Source: Methanomicrobiales archaeon
GTDB taxonomy: Archaea > Halobacteriota > Methanomicrobia > Methanomicrobiales > Methanoculleaceae
Length of the DNA stretch: 21,726 nucleotides
Assembly (NCBI GenBank): GCA_012510295.1
Contig: JAAZID010000182.1
Span: 1-21,726 of the forward strand
Direction of reading: 5' to 3'
Shown here: piece by piece, positions 1,936-21,726 of the stretch
Layout of the letters: the number at the start of each line of letters is the position of its first letter
Numbering within the stretch: position 1 is the first letter of the stretch
The notes under the pieces: generated by a model
Told to the model about the DNA's origin: nothing
Databases searched by the model: none
What the model saw: only the letters and a program-made list of their open reading frames with translations
Position numbers and translations under genes: made by a program

Positions 1936-1967
1936 AGTGCTACAACCTATTGTTGAGTCGGTTTCAG

Positions 1968-2750
1968 ATGATCAGGGCCTACACCATTACTTCTGGAAAA
2001 GGCGGAACGGGAAAGACAACCGTCACCGCAAATCTCGGAACGGCACTGGCCCAATACGGCAGGGAGACCTGTATCATCGATACAGATATGGGTATGGCCA
2101 ATCTCGGACTGGTCATGGGGCTTGCGGAGACACCGGTAACACTCCACGAGGTTCTGGCCGGGAAGGCGAGAGTCCAGGATGCGACCTACGAAGGACCATA
2201 TGGCCTGAAGATCGTGCCAAGTGGCCTCTCACTCAAGGGGTTTCGGGATGCAGACCCGAAACGGCTCAAGGACGTTATGCACGATCTCACCGACCGGTGC
2301 GAATTTCTGCTCCTCGATACCCCTGCCGGCATCGGTAGCGATGTCGTCATGCCGCTCACGGTTGCAGATGAGGTGATACTGGTTGTGAACCCTGAGATCT
2401 CCTCACTTGTGGATGCGCTGAAGATCAAGATCCTGACGGAGATGATCGGCGGCACCGTCGGGGGAGTGATTCTCAACCGGGCGACACTGGAGGGCAACGA
2501 TACGAGTTGGAGAAAGATCGAGAAGACCCTCGGTGTGCCGATCATCGATACGATCCCCGAGGACGCGCATGTGCGGAGAGCGGCGGCAGCCAGAACGCCG
2601 GTCTCCGTGAAATTTCCCGGATCCGAATCGTCAAAAGCATTCAGGAGGATCGCGGCTACGATGGCAGACATTCCTGCCCGGGAAGATCCCGAAACAGTAC
2701 AGGAAGGATTTATTGAACGATTCGCGCGCGCACTATTCAGGAGAGAATGA
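1968..2750 (+). CDS. minD: MinD/ParA-family P-loop ATPase with C-terminal membrane-targeting-like helix
   Basis: A deviant-Walker-A ATPase of the MinD/ParA class, 260 residues. The signature KGGTGKTT (11-18) has the extra lysine typical of the family. IIDTDMGMANL (36-46) and DTPAG (117-121) are the switch and Walker B regions. Such proteins dimerise with ATP on a membrane or DNA and are released by a partner that triggers hydrolysis. The last ~15 residues (from about EGFIERF to the end) can form an amphipathic helix with aromatic/aliphatic residues on one face and Arg on the other, like the MinD membrane-targeting tail. The downstream one-pass membrane protein begins 2 nt after the stop. Methanogens carry several MinD paralogues, and no MinC/MinE is visible, so a role in division is not implied. 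Start at ATG 1968 chosen from the TATA position. Confidence 0.85.
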   Translation: MIRAYTITSGKGGTGKTTVTANLGTALAQYGRETCIIDTDMGMANLGLVMGLAETPVTLHEVLAGKARVQDATYEGPYGLKIVPSGLSLKGFRDADPKRLKDVMHDLTDRCEFLLLDTPAGIGSDVVMPLTVADEVILVVNPEISSLVDALKIKILTEMIGGTVGGVILNRATLEGNDTSWRKIEKTLGVPIIDTIPEDAHVRRAAAARTPVSVKFPGSESSKAFRRIAATMADIPAREDPETVQEGFIERFARALFRRE

Positions 2751-6383: not shown

Positions 6384-7769
6384 TTACCCCTGTGCGGCTT
6401 TTCGGTACTTCGGGTGGTACTTCTGGATCAGTTCGCGGTCGATACGCACGAGCTGCTCTTCGGGCAGCGTCGCGAGGAGCTTCCAGCCGAGATCGAGCGT
6501 CTCCTCGATCGACCGGTCTTCATACAGGCCCTGCCTGACGAACTGGTCCTCGAAGAGGTCAGCGAACTCAAGGAACGTCTGGTCACGCTCGGAGAGAGCA
6601 TCCTTCCCGACGATGGCCACAAGACCCCGGAGGTCGTTCCCCTCGGCGTATGCCGCGTAGAGCTGGTCCGATACCTTCTTATGGTCTTCACGGGTGTGCC
6701 CTTCACCGATACCGAGGTTCATCAACCGGGAGAGCGAGGGCAACACGTTGATCGGTGCGTATATACCCTTCCGGTGCAGCTCACGGTTGACCACGATCTG
6801 ACCCTCGGTGATGTAGCCGGTCAGGTCGGGGATCGGGTGCGTGATATCGTCACCCGGCATCGTCAGGATCGGGATCTGGGTCACCGAACCCTTGACGCCC
6901 TTGATGATACCGGCACGCTCGTAGATGCCCGCAAGGTCGGTATACATGTACCCCGGATACCCACGCCGTCCCGGCACCTCTTCACGAGCCGCGCCGATCT
7001 GACGGAGCGCCTCACAGTAGTTGGTCATATCCGTCAGGATGACGAGCACGTGGTACCCGAGTTCGAACGCCAGGTACTCCGCCGTGGTGAGCGCGAGACG
7101 CGGCGTGATGGTCCGCTCGACGGCCGGATCGTCTGCAAGGTTTAAGAAGACGACCGAGCGCTCGAGGGCACCGGTCTTCTCGAAGTCGGCCATGAAGTAG
7201 TTGGCCTCTTCCCGGGTGATACCCATGGCAGCGAATACCACGGCGAACTCCTCGGTTGAACCGGGCACCTTTGCCTGCCGGGCGATCTGGAGCGCCACAT
7301 CGTTGTGGGGCAGACCCGACCCTGAGAAGATCGGGAGCTTCTGACCACGGACGAGGGTGTTCGTCCCGTCGATCGTCGAGATCCCCGTCTGGATGAAGTC
7401 CTCAGGGGATGCCCGGGCGTAGGGGTTGATGGCTGCGCCGGTGATCTCGAGCCGCTTTTCAGGCACGATCTCCGGGCCGCCGTCGATCGGCTTCCCGCCG
7501 CCGGAGAGGATACGACCGAGCATATCCTTCCCGACCGGCATCTTGATCGTCTCACCGGTGAAGCGGACACCTGAATCCCTGCCGATACCTGCCGTAGTCT
7601 CAAAGACCTGGACGACCACGATATCATCGCTCGTGTCCAGTACCTGACCACGCTTAACTGTGCCATCGGCGGTCACGATGTTAACAAGCTCGCTGTACCC
7701 CACCGGCTCAGTCTTCTCGACAAAGACCAGGGGGCCCGCGATCTGTGTTATCGTTCTATACTCCTTCAT
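6384..7769 (-). CDS. atpB: A-type ATP synthase subunit B (non-catalytic)
   Basis: Non-catalytic nucleotide-site subunit alternating with A in the A3B3 head; paralogous to F-type alpha. It lacks a Walker A lysine: the P-loop place holds SGSGLPHND (149-157), the normal state for B subunits. 461 residues. Start: ATG 7769, 2 nt after the atpA stop. A GTG two codons upstream (7775) overlaps the stop as GTGA and has a GAGGG motif close by, so it cannot be excluded. The product is otherwise complete. Confidence 0.95.
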
Positions 7770-7771
7770 GG

Positions 7772-9526
7772 TCACGCCGCCCTCATTGCATCAAATTCAG
7801 CTTCCATGTCCTTCAGGATCTTCTCGAGCGCCGGCTCGTAGTCCTTGATGAACTTGATCTGCGGAAGGTCATTTTTGCTCTTCACGGTGACGATCTGCTG
7901 CGGGGTTGCACCGCTCGCCTGAGCGACACGTGCGAGGTCGGCGTATGCCCGAATCGCTTTCATCATGTCATACTGCTTGGACATAGAGCAGTAGGTATCC
8001 ACCGCATCGTAGGCGTTCTGTTGCAGGAAGACCTCACGGATCAACCTTGCCACCTCGATGGTGATCTGCTCCTCATCCGGCAGAGCGTCGGAGCCGACCA
8101 GCTGGACGATCTCCTGGAGCTCAGCCTCCTTCTGGAGGATAGCCATCGCCCACGCCCGGAGCGGATTCCACTCAGGCGAGACCTCGGTATCGTACCATTC
8201 GGTGAGCGAGTCGAGGTAGAGCGAGTAAGAGTCCAGCCAGTTGATCGCCGGGAAGTGCCGGCGCTGGGAGAGCTTCGCATCCAGTGCCCAGAAGACCTTG
8301 ACGATACGCAGGGTGTTCTGGGTGACCGGTTCTGAGAAGTCGCCGCCCGGAGGCGAGACCGCACCGATAACGGAGACCGAGCCTTCGACACCGTTTAAGG
8401 TCACGACACGGCCTGCCCGCTCATAGAACTCAGAGAGGCGTGCCGCAAGGTATGCGGGGTAGCCCTCCTCGCCGGGCATCTCCTCAAGACGGCTTGAGAT
8501 CTCACGCATCGCCTCCGCCCACCGCGAGGTGGAGTCGGCCATAAGCGAGACATCGTAGCCCATATCCCGGAAGTACTCGGCGATCGTGATGCCCGTATAC
8601 ACGGACGCCTCACGGGCCGCCACCGGCATGTTCGATGTGTTTGCGATCAGGACCGTCCGCTCCATAAGCGGTTTGCCGGTCTTCGGATCTTCAAGCTCCG
8701 GGAACTCGGTCAGCACCTCGGTCATCTCGTTGCCGCGCTCGCCGCAACCGATGTAGACGACGATCTCGGCATCGGACCACTTCGCGAGCTGCTGCTGGGT
8801 GACCGTTTTTCCGCTCCCGAACGGGCCCGGGATGGCCGCGGTTCCGCCTTTTGCGATCGGGAAGAGACCATCCAGGATCCGCTGACCGGTGATCAGCGGT
8901 ATATCCGGGTTGAGTTTCTCCTTCGTCGGACGCGGTACACGGACCGGCCAGCGCTGGAGCATCGTGATCTCGGTACCATCCTCAAGGGTGCAGACGGTCT
9001 CATCAACCGTGAAACTGCCGGCCGCGATCTTCTTGATCGTGCCTCCCTTCGAGTTCGGTGGAACCATCACTTTATGGACGATATTCGTCTCCTGGACGGT
9101 GCCGAGGACATCGCCGGCTTTGACGACATCGCCTGCCTTCGCCGTGGGTACGAACTCCCATTTTTTCTCGTGAGAGAGGCCCGGGGCCGAGACGCCGCGC
9201 TCGATGAAGTCTCCCATCTTTTCGACGAGCACCTCGAGCGGCCGCTGGATCCCATCATAGATACTGGTCAGCAACCCGGGCCCGAGCTCGACAGCGAGCG
9301 ACAGACCGGTGTTCTCCACCGGTTCGCCGGGCCTGATGCCTGCGGTATCCTCGTAGACCTGGATGATGATATTCTCACCCTGGATCTTGATGACCTCCCC
9401 CATCAGTTCCTCATGGCCGATCTTCACCACATCATACATGTGTGCGTCGAGACCGACGGCAGTGACAACCGGCCCTGAAATTCGTTTCAGGACCCCTTGA
9501 GTCCTGCTTTCTGTTCCTTTCTTCAT
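7772..9526 (-). CDS. atpA: A-type ATP synthase catalytic subunit A
   Basis: Catalytic subunit of the A1 head; makes ATP using the proton or sodium gradient. 584 residues. The P-loop GPFGSGKT is at 234-241, the family-specific form of Walker A with Phe, at the same place as in well-studied archaeal A subunits. The A-specific insertion (non-homologous region) lies between about residues 110 and 190, ahead of the P-loop. GERGNEM and the SRWAEAMRE region further along are conserved nucleotide-site parts. No intein interrupts the P-loop, although archaeal atpA is a known intein site. Start: ATG 9526, whose A is the last base of the atpF stop (TAATG). An in-frame GTG at 9535 is an alternative. Confidence 0.96.
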
Positions 9527-14110: not shown

Positions 14111-14120
14111 TATATTTATT
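14111..14120 (-). promoter_or_regulatory. TATA-box promoter of the ATP synthase operon
   Basis: On the minus strand the box reads AATAAATATA. Expected transcription start is near 14089, giving a leader of about 25 nt that carries the atpH Shine-Dalgarno sequence. The box overlaps the stop codon of the upstream gene (TAA at 14116-14118), so the operon is separately promoted even though the upstream gene reads in the same direction. Confidence 0.65.
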
Positions 14121-14655
14121 GTTGTTTGTCTGTTGGGTAATTTTCGGGATTTACGTGTTCTATCACCACCCCGGGAGGCAGGTTTTTCATCATAACACCG
14201 CCGGAAATCCCAGTAAGCGAGAGCCCGGAGAGCTCCATCGACGAACATATGAGGTGCTGTTCTGGATGAGTTCCCCGCTGAATGTCGCAAGCGAGCAGGA
14301 TCTCCGGTGCAACTGATACAACCATCGAGAGTCGTTTTGATCCGGGATGGCCTTTTGGGAGGACGACGAGCGGGATATGGTACTGCCGGATCAGTTCAAG
14401 CATCATGCGCGCCTGTCCAACCGGACCACCCTCCGGCATGGAGACGATGATCAGGTCATCGGGATCGACTGCCTGGCAGTACTCATCATCAGGGGTCTCG
14501 ATACAGAGAGGAAACCGCGAACCGGCCTTTCCTACGAGCAAAAAAGAGTTTTTCCCCCTGATGATCAGGAGATCTTCCTTGAGAGGGATGGCTACCCCGC
14601 TCGCTCCACCTGAAAGAGGCTTCCCGGAACCGTCATCCTCAGGCTTTTTCGACAT
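14116..14655 (-). CDS. Conserved-looking unknown protein, 179 residues
   Basis: I do not recognise this protein. After a charged Gly/Ser-rich N-terminus it shows alternating strands and helices: LLIIRG, SFLLVG, then DDLIIVSMPEGGP followed by a helix QARMMLELIRQ and a second strand IPLVVLPKGHPG. This suggests a Rossmann-like alpha/beta fold with a glycine-rich loop, but no clear catalytic motif. The start at ATG 14655 overlaps the end of the zinc-ribbon gene by 17 nt in another frame; a longer start at 14715 would lie deep inside that gene. It ends within the ATP synthase promoter. Tight linkage implies co-translation with the zinc-ribbon protein; a role linked to ATP synthase is only suggested by position. 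Confidence 0.75.
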   Translation of the reverse strand: MSKKPEDDGSGKPLSGGASGVAIPLKEDLLIIRGKNSFLLVGKAGSRFPLCIETPDDEYCQAVDPDDLIIVSMPEGGPVGQARMMLELIRQYHIPLVVLPKGHPGSKRLSMVVSVAPEILLACDIQRGTHPEQHLICSSMELSGLSLTGISGGVMMKNLPPGVVIEHVNPENYPTDKQQ

Positions 14656-14791
14656 CTTCAGACTGGCAGCTCGGACACATGGGCCGCTTTCCAAGGCCCT
14701 TGAACCGCTCGCCACACTCTTTGCAACGGTAATTCTCGCCTTTCACCCGCTCATCAAACTCGATATCGACAGGTCCACCGACTGTACACAT
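14639..14791 (-). CDS. Small zinc-ribbon protein, 50 residues
   Basis: Two CxxC knuckles (C23/C26 and C39/C42), in CKECG and CPSCQ, spaced 12 residues apart with a basic stretch (FKGLGKR) between, form a classic small zinc ribbon, which often binds RNA or a protein partner. The ATG at 14791 is chosen because a TATA box lies about 40 nt upstream and GGTGAT lies 7 nt before the ATG. An open frame continues upstream to 14899 but crosses the TATA box and is probably not translated. No further function can be given. Confidence 0.75.
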   Translation of the reverse strand: MCTVGGPVDIEFDERVKGENYRCKECGERFKGLGKRPMCPSCQSEDVEKA

Positions 14792-14827
14792 GGGGTTTAT
14801 CACCAGAGGAGCTATCTGGGCGGGGCG

Positions 14828-14835
14828 ATATAAAA
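14828..14835 (-). promoter_or_regulatory. TATA-box promoter of the zinc-ribbon gene pair
   Basis: The minus strand reads TTTTATAT here. The expected start near 14806 gives a leader of about 15 nt containing the GGTGAT ribosome site. It shows that the zinc-ribbon/179-residue pair is its own transcription unit, separate from the TadC-like gene that ends at 14921. Confidence 0.6.
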
Positions 14836-14920
14836 CCCTATCGTAGCACCCCGGGAAGAGCCGATAAGGCCCCACAATGGCGCGATCAGCCGACAACAAA
14901 CCCCCACCGCCCTGCTAACC

Positions 14921-16861
14921 CTACAGAAACACGGCAAACACTACAAACGCTATGACGATCATCGCTGCGGCGTGTTTGACGCCTGCCCGGAGCGAAGCCT
15001 CCCCCATCGCGCCGGCGATCAGCCCCGAGAAGAACGCCTGGATGAGGCATGCGTGGTAGAGGAGGCGCTCGAACGCCACGATAGCGATATTCTTGATGGG
15101 TCCCGAACCGGTCACGCCGGTGAGAGTGGGGGCATCGATCATGGTCACCATCGAGAGGAACCGGGTATCTATGACGATCACGACGAAGAGGAATACGATG
15201 AAGACCAGGTAGACGATGAGGGTATAGATGAACATCTCTGCCTGCCGTTCGCGCTTGAGAACCTCCGACATCGTCGCATCACGGGCCGCTATCGCGAGCA
15301 CATCCCCGATATCACTGGTCATCAGGCTCGCTTTCGTGATCAGGGTGACCGTCCGGGCTATGGCGGGGGTGCGTATCCTCTCTTCGAACCGGATGAGCGC
15401 CTCCTGGATGCTCACACCCCACTCGAGATCACGTTTGATCTTCCTGATCTCGTAGGAGAGCATACCGAGGTTTGCCCGCACCAGGATCGTTATCGCCTGC
15501 ACGAGCGTCAGGCCGACCTGGTTAATGCCAGCGAGACGATCCAGGAAGTCGGGGATACCCGCCTCGATCGCCATAGCCCTCTTCTGCCAGAGGTAGTGAA
15601 AGATGCCAAAAGGTATGAGGACGATCAGGAGCGCAATGACCAGGTGATCGTCCAGAATGTCGATGAGAACCTCAGGGTCGGGGTAGGCCGGGATCACAAA
15701 GAGGGTGAAGGCGATGTACACAAGCGCGATCGGAACTGTCACGTAAAATGTCCGGTTTGGTTCAACGAGGAACGCCTGAAGGGGGTGGCGCAGAAAGAAC
15801 CTGATGTTCCTGACCCGGTCGTAGCGGAGCAGTTGCCGCGCGAGGGGATCCTCACCTTCCTGCTCGCTGACCCTGACGTCCTCGAACGTGCGGAGCTGCT
15901 TGATCACCGTGTAGCGCTCGACTTCTCCCGTTTTGATGGAGATCGCATCGATGAAGAGGATAAAGAAGAGCGACCCTGCCGGGATAAGGAGATAGATGAT
16001 AGCCGAGAGGTACGTCACGGACGTGTCGCTTACAAGCCCCATGACGAGCATAACGATGATGATGAAGAGCGGACCGGCGACAAAGAGTGTCACATAGACC
16101 TCGGCCGCCATCTGGAGCGTATTTAAAAAGCCCTTCTGCTCGAACCGCGCCTCTTCCTGGTACATCCGTACCCGGACATCGAGGAAACCGGTCACATCCC
16201 CACCACTCTCGACCACAGAGATGAGATCCTGGAGGAAGTCACGCAGTTTATCTGATGGGGTCGTCTCCTGCAGGTGCCGGATCGCCGAGATCATGTCGTA
16301 GCCGAAGTAGTCGGTATCCCGGACAACGCGCCGGAACTCGTGGGCGACCTCACCATAAACCCGGGTCTCCCGGGCCACAGACCGGAAGATCTCCATCACC
16401 TCTGTCCCGCCCCGCCGCATGGCATAGATGTAGGCGACGGCGTTGTGGAGCAGAAGGTTAATCTCGGCGGCCCGGTTCTTCTTCAGGAGGGAGGGGTATA
16501 CCCTGAAGAAGAAGAGAGTCGCGTAGGCGGCGATCACAAATATAACAACGCTTTCGACGATATTCAGGATAAGGACCGATGTATCGGTCAGGACGAACGC
16601 AGGCAGCCGGACGGCAAATACGTTATGAACCCTGATACTGATTCCCGGGAAGGTGGAGAAGCGCATCGCAAGAAACCCCGCAACAGCCCAGATGAGACCG
16701 AAGAGTGTGGATGTGAGGAGTGCCCGTATGACATAACAGTCGAGGGTAACCCCCATGTTCACCGCGATCAGGTCATCGCGGAGATTATGGTACTGCACCG
16801 GATTGCGCGCTATCCACCAGCGAGCGAATCTATTGAGCCGCGCACAGGGGTATGGTGTCAC
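14921..16861 (-). CDS. TadC/ArlJ-type membrane platform protein with two T2SSF domains
   Basis: Inner-membrane platform of an archaeal type IV pilus-like/secretion motor. 646 residues with two copies of the GspF/TadC (T2SSF) module. The first cytoplasmic domain spans about 136-250 and is followed by paired membrane helices (about 251-305). The second spans about 436-545 with helices after it (about 546-566 and 597-646). Extra membrane helices lie at about 43-66, 90-120, 371-392 and 405-423. The conserved bundle motif recurs as FRSVARETRVYG and in the segment around QVGLTLVQAITI. Starts at GTG 16861, overlapping the ATPase gene by 4 nt (GTGA), so the two are made together. No prepilin, prepilin peptidase or minor pilin gene is in the window, so substrate and function (adhesion pilus, secretion or DNA uptake) are unknown. 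Confidence 0.88.
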   Translation of the reverse strand: MTPYPCARLNRFARWWIARNPVQYHNLRDDLIAVNMGVTLDCYVIRALLTSTLFGLIWAVAGFLAMRFSTFPGISIRVHNVFAVRLPAFVLTDTSVLILNIVESVVIFVIAAYATLFFFRVYPSLLKKNRAAEINLLLHNAVAYIYAMRRGGTEVMEIFRSVARETRVYGEVAHEFRRVVRDTDYFGYDMISAIRHLQETTPSDKLRDFLQDLISVVESGGDVTGFLDVRVRMYQEEARFEQKGFLNTLQMAAEVYVTLFVAGPLFIIIVMLVMGLVSDTSVTYLSAIIYLLIPAGSLFFILFIDAISIKTGEVERYTVIKQLRTFEDVRVSEQEGEDPLARQLLRYDRVRNIRFFLRHPLQAFLVEPNRTFYVTVPIALVYIAFTLFVIPAYPDPEVLIDILDDHLVIALLIVLIPFGIFHYLWQKRAMAIEAGIPDFLDRLAGINQVGLTLVQAITILVRANLGMLSYEIRKIKRDLEWGVSIQEALIRFEERIRTPAIARTVTLITKASLMTSDIGDVLAIAARDATMSEVLKRERQAEMFIYTLIVYLVFIVFLFVVIVIDTRFLSMVTMIDAPTLTGVTGSGPIKNIAIVAFERLLYHACLIQAFFSGLIAGAMGEASLRAGVKHAAAMIVIAFVVFAVFL

Positions 16862-18519
16862 CAGGACAACCCGCCCGGGTCGGAGAGGGCGGCGAGCACC
16901 CGCCCGGGATCGACCGCGTAGGTCTGGATGACCCGAGATACCTCGCGGTAGTCCCGGATGCCCTGCTCATGCATAGCAAGGAGGATACGCTTCCGCCTCT
17001 CAAGCTCGGTCTCAAGGTCTCTCTGACTCCAGCCGCGGTACTCCATGATCTCATCAAATACCCGGGATCTCCCGGTGTACGAGAATGTATCGGCTACAGG
17101 GTCGTACTCAAAGACGGTGTTCACCAGGAGGTTGTTGGTGATCGGGTCGATTCCGGTGATCTCGACGATCTCCCGACATCGCCTCACGCGGTCCCGGCCG
17201 CGATACGTCAGCGACTGAACCGACATGATGTCCAGCGCCCTGAGCATGTTCCGGGGCACGTTGAGTGGTTCGTTCTCCAGGCGGTGGATCGCCGCATCGA
17301 TACCACCGGCGTGCATGGTGGAGAACGTCGTGTGCCCGGTGTTCATCGCCTGGAAGAGCGTCTGGGCCTCACTCCCCCTGACCTCCCCGACCAGGATGTA
17401 CTCAGGCCGTTGCCGCATAGCCGCCTTGAGGAGATCGAACATACCGATAGGAGCGCTCGTCCCCTCCGATATCCGGTCACGGGTAACGCTCGCGACCCAG
17501 TTATCGTGGTGGAGCGTGATCTCCCGTGTATCCTCAATGGAGACGATTTTCGCAAGCGGCGGGATGAAGTGAGCGACCGCGTTGAGCGATGTGGTCTTCC
17601 CCGATGCGGTGCCACCGATGAAGAGCAGACTTTTGTTGTTCTCGATCGCCATCCAGAAATAGGCCATCTGATCGACACCGAACGTGTTCGATTCTATCAG
17701 CTCGACAGGTGTAAACGGCTCTTCGCGGAATTTTCGGATCGTAAACGACGTACCTCGCGTGGTGATCTCATCCCCGAACGTGAGCTGTAGCCGGGATCCG
17801 TCCGGAAGGGTCGCATCCACAAGCGGGCTCCCGATCGAGACGTGTTTTCCCGAACGCTGGGCGAGCGTTATCCCAAGCGAGAGGAGCGCGGGCTCGTCGA
17901 ACTCGATGTTCGTCCCGATGTTCCGATACCTCCGGTGGTAGAGGAAGATCGGAACACGGGTGCCATCGCATGATATATCCTCGATCCAGGGATCGTTCAT
18001 CAGTGCATCGATACGAGACCAGCCGAGGAAGTTGCGCCTGAGGTAATACTGGAGTTTGAAGAGAGAAGTCTCCTCAAGGGATAACCCGTACTCGGTAAGA
18101 AGCGCCTGCATCTTTCGGGAGAGGACGATCTGTGGGTCGGAATCCATGTCATGGTCATCCAGGATCAGGACATCGCGGAGGTCTTCAAAGAGCCGCTCAA
18201 GGAGTTCGTACTCAAACTCAGAGAGTATCGGCTCGAAAAGAAGATATTCAGCGAGATAGGTCTGCGTGTTCTGGGCGATCACGACAAGCGAGAGACCTTC
18301 GGTGACCCAGTAGCTGTCGATCTCCTGGTAGTGGGGAGGGACTTCCGCGACAACGAGGGGGCCGTGTTCGGCGAGGTCGTACTCGTCGGGGAGGTCTTCA
18401 TACTTCCGTGAGAAGCGCAATCGCCCGAGAATGCGGGAGAGACGTGGCCGGGCACCACCAGATGTATCCGTTCCGCCGGCAGAACCCTGGCCCTTCCCAA
18501 TACGTTCTCTGATGGCCAT
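16858..18519 (-). CDS. GspE/TadA/ArlI-type secretion ATPase
   Basis: Hexameric motor ATPase that drives pilus assembly or secretion together with the platform protein. 553 residues. A low-complexity basic N-terminus (1-40) is followed by an N-terminal domain and the RecA-like core: Walker A GGTASGKTT (302-310), the Asp box around IEDTREI (328-334), Walker B YILVGEVRG (374-382) and the His box GHTTFSTMHAGG (395-406). All catalytic motifs are intact. Close to the archaeal family that includes ArlI and pilus ATPases; which branch cannot be told by eye. ATG 18519 is supported by GGAGGT 10 nt upstream. Divergently transcribed from the KaiC-like pair. Confidence 0.92.
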   Translation of the reverse strand: MAIRERIGKGQGSAGGTDTSGGARPRLSRILGRLRFSRKYEDLPDEYDLAEHGPLVVAEVPPHYQEIDSYWVTEGLSLVVIAQNTQTYLAEYLLFEPILSEFEYELLERLFEDLRDVLILDDHDMDSDPQIVLSRKMQALLTEYGLSLEETSLFKLQYYLRRNFLGWSRIDALMNDPWIEDISCDGTRVPIFLYHRRYRNIGTNIEFDEPALLSLGITLAQRSGKHVSIGSPLVDATLPDGSRLQLTFGDEITTRGTSFTIRKFREEPFTPVELIESNTFGVDQMAYFWMAIENNKSLLFIGGTASGKTTSLNAVAHFIPPLAKIVSIEDTREITLHHDNWVASVTRDRISEGTSAPIGMFDLLKAAMRQRPEYILVGEVRGSEAQTLFQAMNTGHTTFSTMHAGGIDAAIHRLENEPLNVPRNMLRALDIMSVQSLTYRGRDRVRRCREIVEITGIDPITNNLLVNTVFEYDPVADTFSYTGRSRVFDEIMEYRGWSQRDLETELERRKRILLAMHEQGIRDYREVSRVIQTYAVDPGRVLAALSDPGGLSW

Positions 18520-18529
18520 GCTTGACTCA

Positions 18530-18535
18530 ACCTCC
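18530..18535 (-). promoter_or_regulatory. Shine-Dalgarno sequence of the secretion ATPase gene
   Basis: GGAGGT on the minus strand, 10 nt before ATG 18519. It indicates a leadered transcript for this gene, in contrast to the leaderless-looking genes at the left end of the window. Confidence 0.6.
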
Positions 18536-18615
18536 CGGGTTTTGCTGCAGCCCTCCGGCGATCCATCGATACCCGGGTAGATGCATTTAGATCATACGAG
18601 ATGTGGCGGGCTGCG

Positions 18616-18624
18616 CTTATTAAT
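18616..18624 (-). promoter_or_regulatory. Candidate TATA box of the secretion ATPase operon
   Basis: ATTAATAAG on the minus strand follows an A8-containing purine stretch. Expected start near 18594 leaves a leader of about 75 nt to the Shine-Dalgarno-served ATG 18519. It is the best minus-strand candidate in the divergent intergenic region. Confidence 0.35.
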
Positions 18625-18710
18625 CTACTTTTTTTTAAATCCGGGGATGAACATCCAGCAGAGATTTATTTTCTGTCACAATGCCTCACTTGAGAGGAAG
18701 AACCAGAACG

Positions 18711-18736
18711 CTTTAACCGGTGGCTCCTTATATTAA
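18711..18736 (+). promoter_or_regulatory. Candidate TATA boxes of the KaiC-like gene pair
   Basis: Two candidates overlap the start region. CTTTAACC (18711-18718) is about 31 nt before ATG 18746 and would give a nearly leaderless mRNA. TTATATTAA (18728-18736) is a better TATA match but would start transcription near 18758, leaving only the in-frame ATG at 18770. The two alternatives imply different N-termini. Confidence 0.35.
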
Positions 18737-18745
18737 GATATACTT

Positions 18746-19582
18746 ATGCGTGATCGTCTTCGACAACGGATGCCGACCGGCATCGCCTCGCTCGACCCGG
18801 TGCTGGACGGTGGTGTCCCGACGGGATCGGTGGTGCTCCTTCTCGGGGAGCCGGGCGCCGGTAGTGTCGAGTTTGTGCAGACGTCGATCATCCGCCTCCT
18901 GGCGCTGAGGCGGGGTGGGGCGGGCGGAGAGCACCGCCTCCTCCCGGACGAGATATCATATGTGACGCTCACCCGGATGCGGGAGGATATCCTCCAGGAG
19001 ATGGTCCTCTCGTTCAACCCCGAGATCTACGACCACCTTGCAGAAGAGGTCGCTTTCCACGATCTCTCGGAGATCTACTTTGATGCAAGCATCGTCCCCC
19101 CGGGCTGGTACGGGGGAGGGAACATCGTCGAGCGGTTGCAGAAGAAGCAGCGCAGTGAGAGAGGCGATGTCCTCGCAGAGATCGCCAGGGTTCTCGGCAA
19201 GGTACCGGAGAACAGCCTGATCATCGTGGACTCGCTGACGGATATCGCCCCGCCGCTCGCAGAGGGAGAGGGGTGGCATGCATTCATCGCTCTCCTGCGC
19301 GGGCTGCAACGGGTATCGAAACGCTGGAAGACCACCATCTACCTCCTGCTCACATCCGGTATACTGGAGCAGTCCAGAGAGATCGAGATCATCGATAGCG
19401 TCGATGCCGCTATCTTCTTTCGCTGGGAGGACACCGGCGCACAGCGCCGGCAACGAGTCATGTATTTTGAGAAATTCCAGGGCGTGATGCCCTACCTTGA
19501 GGATAAGAACCTGGTGAAGTTCGCAGCGAAGATATCGGCGGCAGGAGGATTTGAGGTGCAGAATATACGGGTGATCATATGA
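18746..19582 (+). CDS. KaiC/RecA-superfamily protein with degenerate Walker A
   Basis: A 278-residue RecA-fold protein of the KaiC/RAD55/ArlH type. The N-terminal TGIASLDPVLDGGVPTG (11-27) is the typical KaiC-domain opening. The phosphate loop reads GEPGAGSV (34-41): the glycines are kept but the essential Lys is Ser40 and the next Thr is Val41, so normal ATP binding and hydrolysis are unlikely. A Walker B-like strand SLIIVDS (157-163) keeps its Asp (D162). An insert with basic, charged character (about 128-142) lies before it. Overlaps the next gene by 4 nt (ATGA). Probably a non-hydrolysing partner of the intact KaiC-like protein, possibly regulatory for the divergent motor. Start at ATG 18746; ATG 18770 is an alternative. 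Confidence 0.82.
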   Translation: MRDRLRQRMPTGIASLDPVLDGGVPTGSVVLLLGEPGAGSVEFVQTSIIRLLALRRGGAGGEHRLLPDEISYVTLTRMREDILQEMVLSFNPEIYDHLAEEVAFHDLSEIYFDASIVPPGWYGGGNIVERLQKKQRSERGDVLAEIARVLGKVPENSLIIVDSLTDIAPPLAEGEGWHAFIALLRGLQRVSKRWKTTIYLLLTSGILEQSREIEIIDSVDAAIFFRWEDTGAQRRQRVMYFEKFQGVMPYLEDKNLVKFAAKISAAGGFEVQNIRVII

Positions 19583-20274
19583 TGAGAGAACGGGTGAAGT
19601 TCGGCGTCGAGGGGCTGGATGCGATGCTCTCGGGGGGCCTCCCCCGGGAGAGCATCTGTGCGATCATCGGCACATACGGGACAGGGAAGACGACATTTGC
19701 TCTCCAGTTCGCATATGAAGGGCTCTCGCGCGGCGAGAATGTTATCTACATCAGCCTTGAAGAGCGGGAGGAACTCCTCCGCGCCACCATGGCGCAGAAG
19801 GGGTGGGAGACGGAGGCGTTCGGCGACCGGTTCTATCTTCTCCGGCTGGACCCGACCGACTTCAACCTCGCGATCAGCAGCATCAAGAGCGAACTTCCCC
19901 AGCTCATCGAGAGCGTCGGGGCATCGCGGGTCATCATCGACCCGATATCGCTCTTTGAGGGGCTCTTCCTGGATGAAGCGGCCCGGCGACAGGAGGTATT
20001 CAGGTTCATCGAGGTGATGCGTGACGAGAACTGCACGCTCGTATTGACAAGCGAGACCGATACGTCAAACCCGGATGGGAGCAGGTACGGCCTCATCGAG
20101 TACCTGGCAGATACGGTGATCCTCCTGCGCTACATCCGGTCGGAGAAGCTCACCGAGGTGCACCTCGCCCTCGAGGTCGTGAAGATGCGCCGCTCGCCCC
20201 ACTCCCGGGAGATAAAGCCTTTCGAGATCCTGGAGAACCAGATCATGGTCTACTCTGAAGCGAGCCTGTTTTAG
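19579..20274 (+). CDS. KaiC/RAD55-family ATPase, intact nucleotide site
   Basis: A single-domain KaiC-like ATPase, 231 residues. Opening RVKFGVEGLDAMLSGGLPRE, Walker A GTYGTGKTT (31-39), catalytic Glu pair E61-E62 in SLEEREE, and Walker B VIIDPIS (118-124, D121) are all present. Relatives act as ATP-dependent switches, including archaellum ArlH, which controls the ArlI/ArlJ motor, and signalling KaiC-like proteins of archaea. ATG 19579 overlaps the preceding stop by 4 nt (ATG 19582 is possible), so it is expressed with the degenerate partner and a mixed complex is plausible. Role in the motor is inferred from neighbourhood only. Confidence 0.88.
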   Translation: MMRERVKFGVEGLDAMLSGGLPRESICAIIGTYGTGKTTFALQFAYEGLSRGENVIYISLEEREELLRATMAQKGWETEAFGDRFYLLRLDPTDFNLAISSIKSELPQLIESVGASRVIIDPISLFEGLFLDEAARRQEVFRFIEVMRDENCTLVLTSETDTSNPDGSRYGLIEYLADTVILLRYIRSEKLTEVHLALEVVKMRRSPHSREIKPFEILENQIMVYSEASLF

Positions 20275-20304: not shown

Positions 20305-20571
20305 TCAGAGCGTGATCCCAAAGATATGGAGCAGGACGATGACCAGGGCACCCGGGAGTCCGCCGAGGGCACATATGATAACCGTCACAAGGTTGATCTG
20401 GACGTCGGGGACGCCGAATAACCCCGATAGAACGTCAAAGGTGTTCAGGAGCCAGAGCGTGACGAGTCCGGCGATGGCGTTGATGAGGAGGGTCGTGGCC
20501 TTCTTCATGAGGTAGTATATCGCCGCCGCTATCGCCACTGCCACGAGAATTGCGATGAGCGCTTCCATCAT
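20305..20571 (-). CDS. BofA-family small membrane protein
   Basis: An 88-residue, strongly hydrophobic protein with three probable membrane segments (about 3-21, 28-45, 60-86). The pattern matches the pro-sigma-K processing inhibitor BofA family (pfam07441), known from sporulating Bacillus but also common in methanogens, where there is neither sporulation nor sigma factor. In Bacillus, BofA inhibits an intramembrane protease; the archaeal role is unknown. The start codon shares a base with the stop of the TldE-like gene (TAATG); a second ATG follows immediately. Ends at a hairpin/T-run terminator. Confidence 0.78.
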   Translation of the reverse strand: MMEALIAILVAVAIAAAIYYLMKKATTLLINAIAGLVTLWLLNTFDVLSGLFGVPDVQINLVTVIICALGGLPGALVIVLLHIFGITL

Positions 20572-21726
20572 TATTTACCAATTATCTGCTGGTTATTTAA
20601 GCGTATTGATGGAAGAGTCAGCCGCCCTATCCTTCGATCGTCCATTCCGAACCCCTCGATCTCACGGAGCATCTCAAAGACGTTTCCTGCAAGCATCGCG
20701 GTCCGGAGGGGGCGCGTCGCCTCCCCGTCCTCTATCCAGAAGGGGTTTGATATCTCCACCGAGAAGTCACCGGAGAATGGGTTTGCGGTGTGCGCACCGA
20801 CGACCGAGTGGACTGAGATCGCTCGCCCGTAGCCCATATCCGATCTCCGCAGCCCGTCGATGACGAGATTATGGACCCCGATGCCAGGCTCCCCGGCCCC
20901 TTCGCGCACAGCGCTTCCCGTGCTCTCTTCGCCGTAGCGGTAGCCGGTCCTGAGATCGTAGGCGAATCGCTCAAGCACACCCTGATCCACGAATACCAGG
21001 TTCTCTGTGGGGACACCGTCTCCATCCCAGGCGGTGCTCCCCCTGCCGGGGGAATGGGGGTCGTCGTAGACCCTGAGGGTCTCGTCAAAGACCTGATCCC
21101 CGAGTTTATCGGCGAGGAACGACCGGCCTGCCTTCACGTTCCGGCCGGAGAGCGCCGGGATGAGGATATTTCCTATGAGGCTTGCGGCGGCGATGGGGGA
21201 GAGGATGACGTCGTAGCGCCCGGTATCGACCCGGTCGCCACCGAGGGAGCGGTAGGCAAGCGAAGCCGCCGCCTCCCCGACCGCCCGGGGGTTGATGTCG
21301 GCGAGGAATGGGGAGGCGTCGAACTCGTAACCCGTGGACTGCTCCCGGATCGCCTCAAGGGAGACCGCCGCGATCGTTCTCTCCATGTTGTATGCGACGC
21401 CGTTTGTGTTTGCAAGCTCCCGGTGTGATCGGCCGAGGTCGACCCCGCCGCCGATGATATCCACCGGGTGTTCCGCTGCGCCGGCGAGGAGGTCTTCGAC
21501 CATGCCAACCGCATTCCCGATATCTACAGCGAGATCCAGGTCCGCCGAGGGTGCAGAGAACATCGCCGTATCCGGGACCGGAAGCCCGCCCCACTCCTGT
21601 GCTGTGGCGATCCTCCCACTCGCAAGCGCCGCATCGAGGCACTCCATCCAGCGGTCAGGGTCGCCGGTGCTCGATGACCCGATCCGCCCGTCCCGGATGG
21701 TTCGGATGGTCATACTCCAGGACTCC
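20571..21726 (-). CDS. pmbA: TldE/PmbA-type protein, 5' end outside window
   Basis: Member of the TldD/PmbA (TldE) family, which forms a heterodimeric metalloprotease acting on unfolded peptides or modified-peptide precursors. The HExxxH zinc motif of TldD is absent, so this is the TldE/PmbA-type partner without the metal site. The segment RDGRIGSSST near the visible N-terminus aligns with the middle of the usual first domain, and SPIAAASLIGNILIPALSG and SVHSVVGAHTANPFSGDFSVE are family landmarks. About 50 residues appear missing: the frame has no stop between ATG 21713 and the window edge, so the real start is probably beyond 21726. The catalytic TldD partner would be expected upstream. Confidence 0.88.
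   Translation of the reverse strand, partial: ESWSMTIRTIRDGRIGSSSTGDPDRWMECLDAALASGRIATAQEWGGLPVPDTAMFSAPSADLDLAVDIGNAVGMVEDLLAGAAEHPVDIIGGGVDLGRSHRELANTNGVAYNMERTIAAVSLEAIREQSTGYEFDASPFLADINPRAVGEAAASLAYRSLGGDRVDTGRYDVILSPIAAASLIGNILIPALSGRNVKAGRSFLADKLGDQVFDETLRVYDDPHSPGRGSTAWDGDGVPTENLVFVDQGVLERFAYDLRTGYRYGEESTGSAVREGAGEPGIGVHNLVIDGLRRSDMGYGRAISVHSVVGAHTANPFSGDFSVEISNPFWIEDGEATRPLRTAMLAGNVFEMLREIEGFGMDDRRIGRLTLPSIRLNNQQIIGK

Follow-up and report, generated by a model that had tools for sequence, protein, structure and literature searches.

A divergent four-gene block in Methanomicrobiales linking a PilB3-like pilus motor to a degenerate and an intact KaiC protein

The window, a stretch of 21,726 nucleotides, corresponds to contig C59 of a draft genome in 451 contigs, estimated at 80% completeness; among named organisms, Methanoculleus is nearest to it. 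Four genes are arranged in it as two pairs that read away from each other. The reverse strand carries a TadC/PilC-type membrane platform protein (14921–16861; 646 residues, two T2SSF modules, GTG start as listed) and a PilB3-type assembly ATPase (16858–18519; 553 residues) with an intact Walker A motif, GGTASGKTTS. The forward strand carries a pseudo-KaiC, here called dKaiC (18746–19582; 278 residues), which has a KaiC fold with serine in place of the P-loop lysine, and an intact CI-like KaiC of the KaiC_arch_3 type, iKaiC (19579–20274; 231 residues), with the P-loop GTYGTGKTT and a catalytic glutamate pair. The two genes of each pair overlap by 4 nt, and the pairs are separated by 226 nt (18520–18745), in which no convincing promoter was found. 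The coordinates confirm the layout given in the initial annotation, namely two overlapping pairs diverging from a 226 nt gap.

To the left of the block are the small genes Zn86 and u199, followed by A-type ATP synthase genes (the latter named by eye); to the right are a BofA-family gene and then PmbA. The genes for the BofA-family membrane protein (52.9 bits) and the PmbA/TldD metallopeptidase directly adjoin each other (together 20305–21713, reverse strand), and the two are found together in many Methanomicrobiales loci. No match to u199 was obtained in Pfam or NCBIfam at E 0.1; u199 and a zinc-ribbon protein (14116–14899, reverse strand) remain with the A-type ATP synthase genes where the motor block has been lost. 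A gene for a FleN/MinD-like ATPase (1950–2750, forward strand) is located 12 kb away from the motor genes. Relatives of it are present in five of the six inspected loci that lack the block, in one of them split in two pieces, and a passage of PMC4858521 considers proteins of this family likely to regulate archaeal pili.

The platform protein matched PF00482 (T2SSF; Pfam) in two stretches with 106.9 bits (cut-off 25.2), and the ATPase matched T2SSE (Pfam) with 111.7 bits, in agreement with the earlier identification of a pilus-type motor with a two-module TadC. The ATPase also scored 29.8 bits on PilB3_C (Pfam), over the cut-off of 27, and 16.5 bits on PilB3_N, under the cut-off of 27; neither model was listed for the real ArlI of the same genome. 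On the ArlI equivalog the window ATPase reached 395.1 bits (cut-off 550) and the genome's own ArlI 738 bits; the latter is encoded together with a real ArlH (268 bits) on contig C140 (L137). TadC reached 74 bits on the ArlJ equivalog (cut-off 550), and dKaiC and iKaiC reached 27.0 and 45.9 bits, respectively, on ArlH (cut-off 215). The initial annotation had described the genes as an ArlH–I–J-like set, a description that these scores and the separate arl genes do not bear out. The closest solved relative of the ATPase is 2OAP/2OAQ (504 bits), with FlaI (4II7) at 277 bits.

Comparison of the ATPase with ArlI in a tree had been proposed as a check. Such a tree, comprising 45 rows chosen from those found and rooted at the midpoint, went against the ArlI-like reading: the seven ArlI rows formed one group (support 100/100) apart from the window ATPase, which was grouped with 16 other block ATPases from Methanomicrobiales (95/88). 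Block ATPases of the Methanoperedens type fell outside the Methanomicrobiales group and nearer to paralogous PilB, with weak support (89/83), and the placement of those of L211 and L214 was unresolved. The window's genome encodes a second, paralogous PilB, 46–47% identical to the window ATPase (among the matches listed), on contig C424, where the sole prepilin peptidase match of the genome is located as well. Several features expected of a clade 2 (PilB3-type) euryarchaeal pilus are present, namely a PilB3 terminal domain, an ATPase apart from ArlI, an adjoining TadC and, elsewhere in the genome, pilin and prepilin peptidase genes. Judged by its sequences, the motor is pilus-type (PilB3-like) and not ArlI/ArlJ.

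The two proteins of the opposite pair both show the KaiC fold. On the Pfam KaiC model dKaiC scored 27.7 bits, barely over the cut-off of 26.6 and across residues 10–41 only, whereas iKaiC scored 185.4 bits over nearly its whole length, in agreement with the earlier reading of one degenerate and one intact KaiC. The P-loop lysine is missing from dKaiC and present in iKaiC. Its loss extends to every dKaiC sequence in two sets (21/21 and 19/19), and in the same sets a glutamate two residues past the lost lysine is invariant (21/21 and 19/19). As far as sequences can establish it, the P-loop degeneration of dKaiC is real and family-wide. Of 392 genomes from the phylum, 191 have members matching a dKaiC profile; a pseudo-KaiC that is spread so widely and keeps its P-loop glutamate invites work on its structure and partners.

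iKaiC was assigned to TIGR03880 (KaiC_arch_3) with 307.3 bits (cut-off 249.45), and its P-loop lysine is present in 11 of 12 aligned rows. Its best alignment is to the CI domain of cyanobacterial KaiC. The Ser–Thr pair of KaiC CII is the phospho-acceptor pair; iKaiC has Glu–Tyr at the aligned place. By score, neither protein belongs to RadA or RadB, so one of the refuting outcomes named in the initial annotation did not occur: dKaiC reached 18.5 of 259 bits on RadA and 18.0 of 278 bits on RadB, and iKaiC 27.3 of 259 bits and 34.1 of 172.4 bits, respectively. Two altered copies were seen in genus g20 (the taxon names attached to g20, to f2 and to the GC-rich families were arrived at by inference). 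In L038 (8022–8681, forward strand) arginine replaces the P-loop lysine of iKaiC and the glutamate pair is missing, so both KaiC proteins may be degenerate there. In L041 of G042 the dKaiC copy (7558–8397, reverse strand) has one in-frame TGA; dKaiC and motor are separated in much of g20.

A Pfam scan of ten window proteins revealed no pilin, archaellin or peptidase. The genome contains four Pilin_N matches (three over the cut-off, all on other contigs), one Peptidase_A24 match (contig C424) and two archaellin matches; the arl locus L137 has one archaellin-family gene. The lack of such genes reported in the initial annotation holds for the locus; pilin and peptidase genes are on other contigs of the genome. 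In related loci candidate subunits do occur. An archaellin lies between TadC and Zn86 in six of 99, probably from Methanomicrobiaceae (PF01917, 78–104 bits in three tested), and an archaellin like it is kept in the block-less genomes G087, G091 and G127, the last two being <90% complete, which speaks against a strict tie between this gene and the block. A pilin-like gene lies behind TadC in all four Methanoperedens-type loci (weak Pfam scores in two tested), and in the g20 locus L044 a PF07790 pilin (47 bits) adjoins the ATPase. Two g20 genomes have an ORF of 152–153 residues between the ATPase and dKaiC (L038, 6397–6858, reverse strand; L039, 6610–7068, forward strand), without a Pfam match and with an N-terminus that is pilin-like by eye. 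Section 11 of PMC4858521 describes published PilB3-type loci that are also without pilins and are thought to use pilins in trans. Missing pilins are thus ordinary, and are a property of the locus rather than one shown for the whole system.

dKaiC was present in 99 of 150 Methanomicrobiales genomes and iKaiC, at E 1e-35, in 86. All but one of the 13 dKaiC genomes with an iKaiC under this cut are of genus g20 (12/13), in which a diverged iKaiC still adjoins dKaiC in L038, L039, L041 and L043; none was found beside dKaiC in L040. Among the matches listed, the orthologous ATPase is present in at least 97 genomes, all 97 of which have dKaiC, and in 88 of these the two genes are divergent neighbours with gaps of 121–3052 nt (median 346). 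This count takes one ATPase orthologue per genome, down to 519 bits, among the matches listed; four matches of about 521 bits and 46–50% identity were excluded as paralogues (G107 C172, G026, G131 C40 and G077 C100), and the last of them (L234) lies inside the paralogue clade of the tree. The nine exceptions (among the matches listed) comprise two genomes with the genes on separate contigs and seven of genus g20, where dKaiC and the ATPase are far apart or on different contigs in seven of 12 genomes; the orthology of these seven far-apart ATPases is tree-based for two (L042 and L044). Two draft genomes, G090 and G131, have dKaiC without a typed ATPase among the matches listed, although G090, counted as lacking it, seemingly has an ATPase fragment at a contig end (L093).

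All four genes were found in identical order and on identical strands in 62 of 79 named loci; in 17 a contig end precedes the missing gene, and no other gene order was seen. In L117 and L123 the 2142 and 1593 nt, respectively, from the 5' side of dKaiC to the contig end are without an ATPase. The per-genome and per-locus counts are not independent, since the named loci and the genomes overlap, but both answer positively the earlier suggestion that conservation of the neighbourhood be examined; separation of the two pairs in related genomes, which would have refuted the initial annotation, was not the outcome. The flanks AhaH/u199/Zn86 and BofA/PmbA are both present in 44 of the 79 named loci, many being cut by contig ends, and much of the synteny falls in a region whose flanks are conserved too.

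In the genus of the window, dKaiC is present in 17 genomes and absent from 12. Six loci without the block were inspected, five from those 12 genomes and one from another genome of the same family. In all six genomes the four genes are gone, and BofA–PmbA and Zn86–u199–AhaH are still consecutive. The spacing between Zn86 and BofA is 113 and 235 nt in two and about 1.0–1.4 kb in four; in G022 this stretch contains an ORF resembling, by eye, the membrane ORF that lies between iKaiC and BofA in six loci with the block. Both states were also found within g14, g16, g20 and g31, some of the absences being in incomplete genomes. Joint loss with the flanks kept places Zn86, u199, BofA and PmbA outside the unit and the four genes inside it. 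Because the block is retained or lost as a whole among related genomes, control of the motor by the KaiC pair is suggested.

The divergent four-gene block also occurs outside Methanomicrobiales, in Candidatus Methanoperedens (L130 and L133), a Methanoperedenaceae genome (L132) and an uncultured archaeon (L134), and again in L211, L214 and L218; all seven are without the ATP synthase and PmbA flanks. A hand-chosen, non-random set of 19 dKaiC places in the phylum was opened. The motor adjoins the KaiC pair in four of them, one of which (L212) is apparently L133 again; the pair is without an adjacent motor in three (L210, L213 and L217), and dKaiC stands alone in all 12 GC-rich, probably haloarchaeal, loci. 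In 11 of the GC-rich loci (L203, L205–L209, L215 and L219–L222) dKaiC is followed by a conserved gene of about 294 residues, and a gene for a TFS-like zinc protein is present too (by eye), giving a possible different partner of the pseudo-KaiC in GC-rich genomes. Pairs without a motor and dKaiC without its partner indicate that the KaiC pair is older or wider than the link to the motor, and that dKaiC has or had a role beyond an adjacent motor. As the Methanoperedens-type ATPases fall outside the Methanomicrobiales group, the pair may have been recruited to more than one PilB lineage.

The four genes probably constitute one functional unit, and on balance we favour, with somewhat less assurance, a model in which a PilB3-like/TadC pilus motor has a dedicated two-protein KaiC regulator that docks on the PilB ring. 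The PilB3-like ATPase and the PilC/TadC platform would assemble a type IV pilus from subunits supplied in trans. The products of the overlapping genes, dKaiC and iKaiC, would come together in one ring or in stacked rings, with iKaiC alone turning over ATP, and the complex would dock on the PilB ring from the cytosolic side and switch or time PilB activity. Regulation would resemble that of ArlI by ArlH, but the KaiC proteins would be of a separate lineage and would act by hydrolysis instead of autophosphorylation. Hydrolysis is the likelier switch because iKaiC has the glutamate pair and is without the CII Ser–Thr pair. According to a part of PMC8978795, ArlH is a KaiC-like protein that binds ATP as well as ArlI, which it modulates, and its autophosphorylation breaks the contact. 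Argued by this analogy, direct docking of the KaiC complex on the motor is a little short of an even prospect. Counting against the model are the KaiC pairs and lone dKaiC genes found away from any adjacent motor, the g20 genomes in which dKaiC and the ATPase have separated and iKaiC has diverged, the tree placement of the Methanoperedens-type ATPases, the stretches without an ATPase in L117 and L123, the archaellin kept in block-less genomes and the conservation of the flanks. A more specific version is put forward only tentatively: a split asymmetric KaiC machine in which the pseudo-ATPase assembles with the hydrolysing CI-like KaiC, docks with it on a PilB-type motor and, driven by ATP, times or switches pilus assembly. 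If true, KaiC would be coupled to a type IV motor in a second way, distinct from ArlH; since the pair exists without a motor and beside different PilB lineages, such coupling was possibly recruited more than once.

The alternative that survives best, although we consider it unlikely, is that the two KaiC proteins make up a general signalling unit, acting through partners on transcription of the divergent motor operon and of other targets, with no contact with the motor. Regulators typically lie divergently beside their targets, and the pair is found away from the motor in three loci. In the portions of the literature consulted, the Haloferax KaiC homologue CirA is suggested to fine-tune the regulator CsmR through post-translational modification (PMC13286277), and cirA lies among flagellar genes, divergent from its neighbours (PMC3941300). 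Against this, neither window KaiC protein matched a DNA-binding domain at E 0.1 (Pfam), and the loss of all four genes together is easier to reconcile with a dedicated partner than with a global regulator. It is improbable that the two pairs are neighbours by history only, in a slowly rearranging stretch of the Methanomicrobiales chromosome: the conserved flanks would be expected, but the four genes are lost with those flanks kept, the block is found in other contexts, and none of the 97 ATPase-bearing genomes (among the matches listed) is without dKaiC. An archaellum-related motor of the ArlH–I–J kind is already largely refuted and very improbable, for although the superfamilies are shared, the KaiC fold is equally near FlaH and an archaellin adjoins TadC in the six related loci, all four proteins fall under the arl cut-offs, the real ArlI and ArlH are on contig C140 and ArlI forms its own group in the midpoint-rooted tree. 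What remains of the initial reading is one conserved, jointly lost four-gene unit, without the ArlH–I–J frame. The preferred model, a pilus motor with its own KaiC regulator, bears on a wider question, as on/off switching of archaeal pili is described as little known in section 16 of PMC4858521. In the parts of the literature consulted, ArlH is the one KaiC-type motor partner treated as established; a conserved, jointly lost KaiC pair beside a PilB motor adds a second case that is compact and open to testing, and strains of the same genus that lack the block serve as natural deletions.

Systems of this kind are already known. Section 16 of PMC4858521 (2016) links the KaiC families arCOG01172 and arCOG01173 to archaeal pilus loci in Methanomicrobia and other groups; the window proteins resemble them in taxon and in VirB11/TadC operon linkage, the two points on which they were compared. 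The joint loss, the Methanoperedens copies and the invariant-glutamate P-loop were not found in sections 7, 8, 11 and 16 of that article. Added here are the precise delimitation of the four-gene unit, its loss as a whole, its occurrence beyond Methanomicrobiales, the P-loop signature shared throughout the family and the case against an ArlH–I–J set. A passage of PMC5847659, citing a 2017 mBio paper, describes divergent, possibly inactivated 'inactivated KaiC' domains in archaeal signalling; unlike these, dKaiC is a stand-alone protein with an active KaiC as its conserved partner, joined in some lineages by a pilus motor. The locus shares with the haloarchaeal PilB3/PilC3-type euryarchaeal type IV pili (clade 2, as treated in parts of PMC4858521) a PilB3_C ATPase, a two-module TadC and pilins outside the locus. 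It differs in the divergently linked KaiC pair, and its ATPase is described here as PilB3-like rather than as PilB3. iKaiC resembles the CI domain of cyanobacterial KaiC in its intact P-loop and glutamate pair, but it is a single-domain protein, has Glu–Tyr where CII has Ser–Thr and is partnered by a separate pseudo-KaiC. With ArlH–ArlI–ArlJ the block has in common an assembly ATPase of the same superfamily, a TadC-type platform and a KaiC-fold partner; here, however, there are two KaiC proteins, one of them without the P-loop lysine, and all four proteins score under the arl cut-offs.
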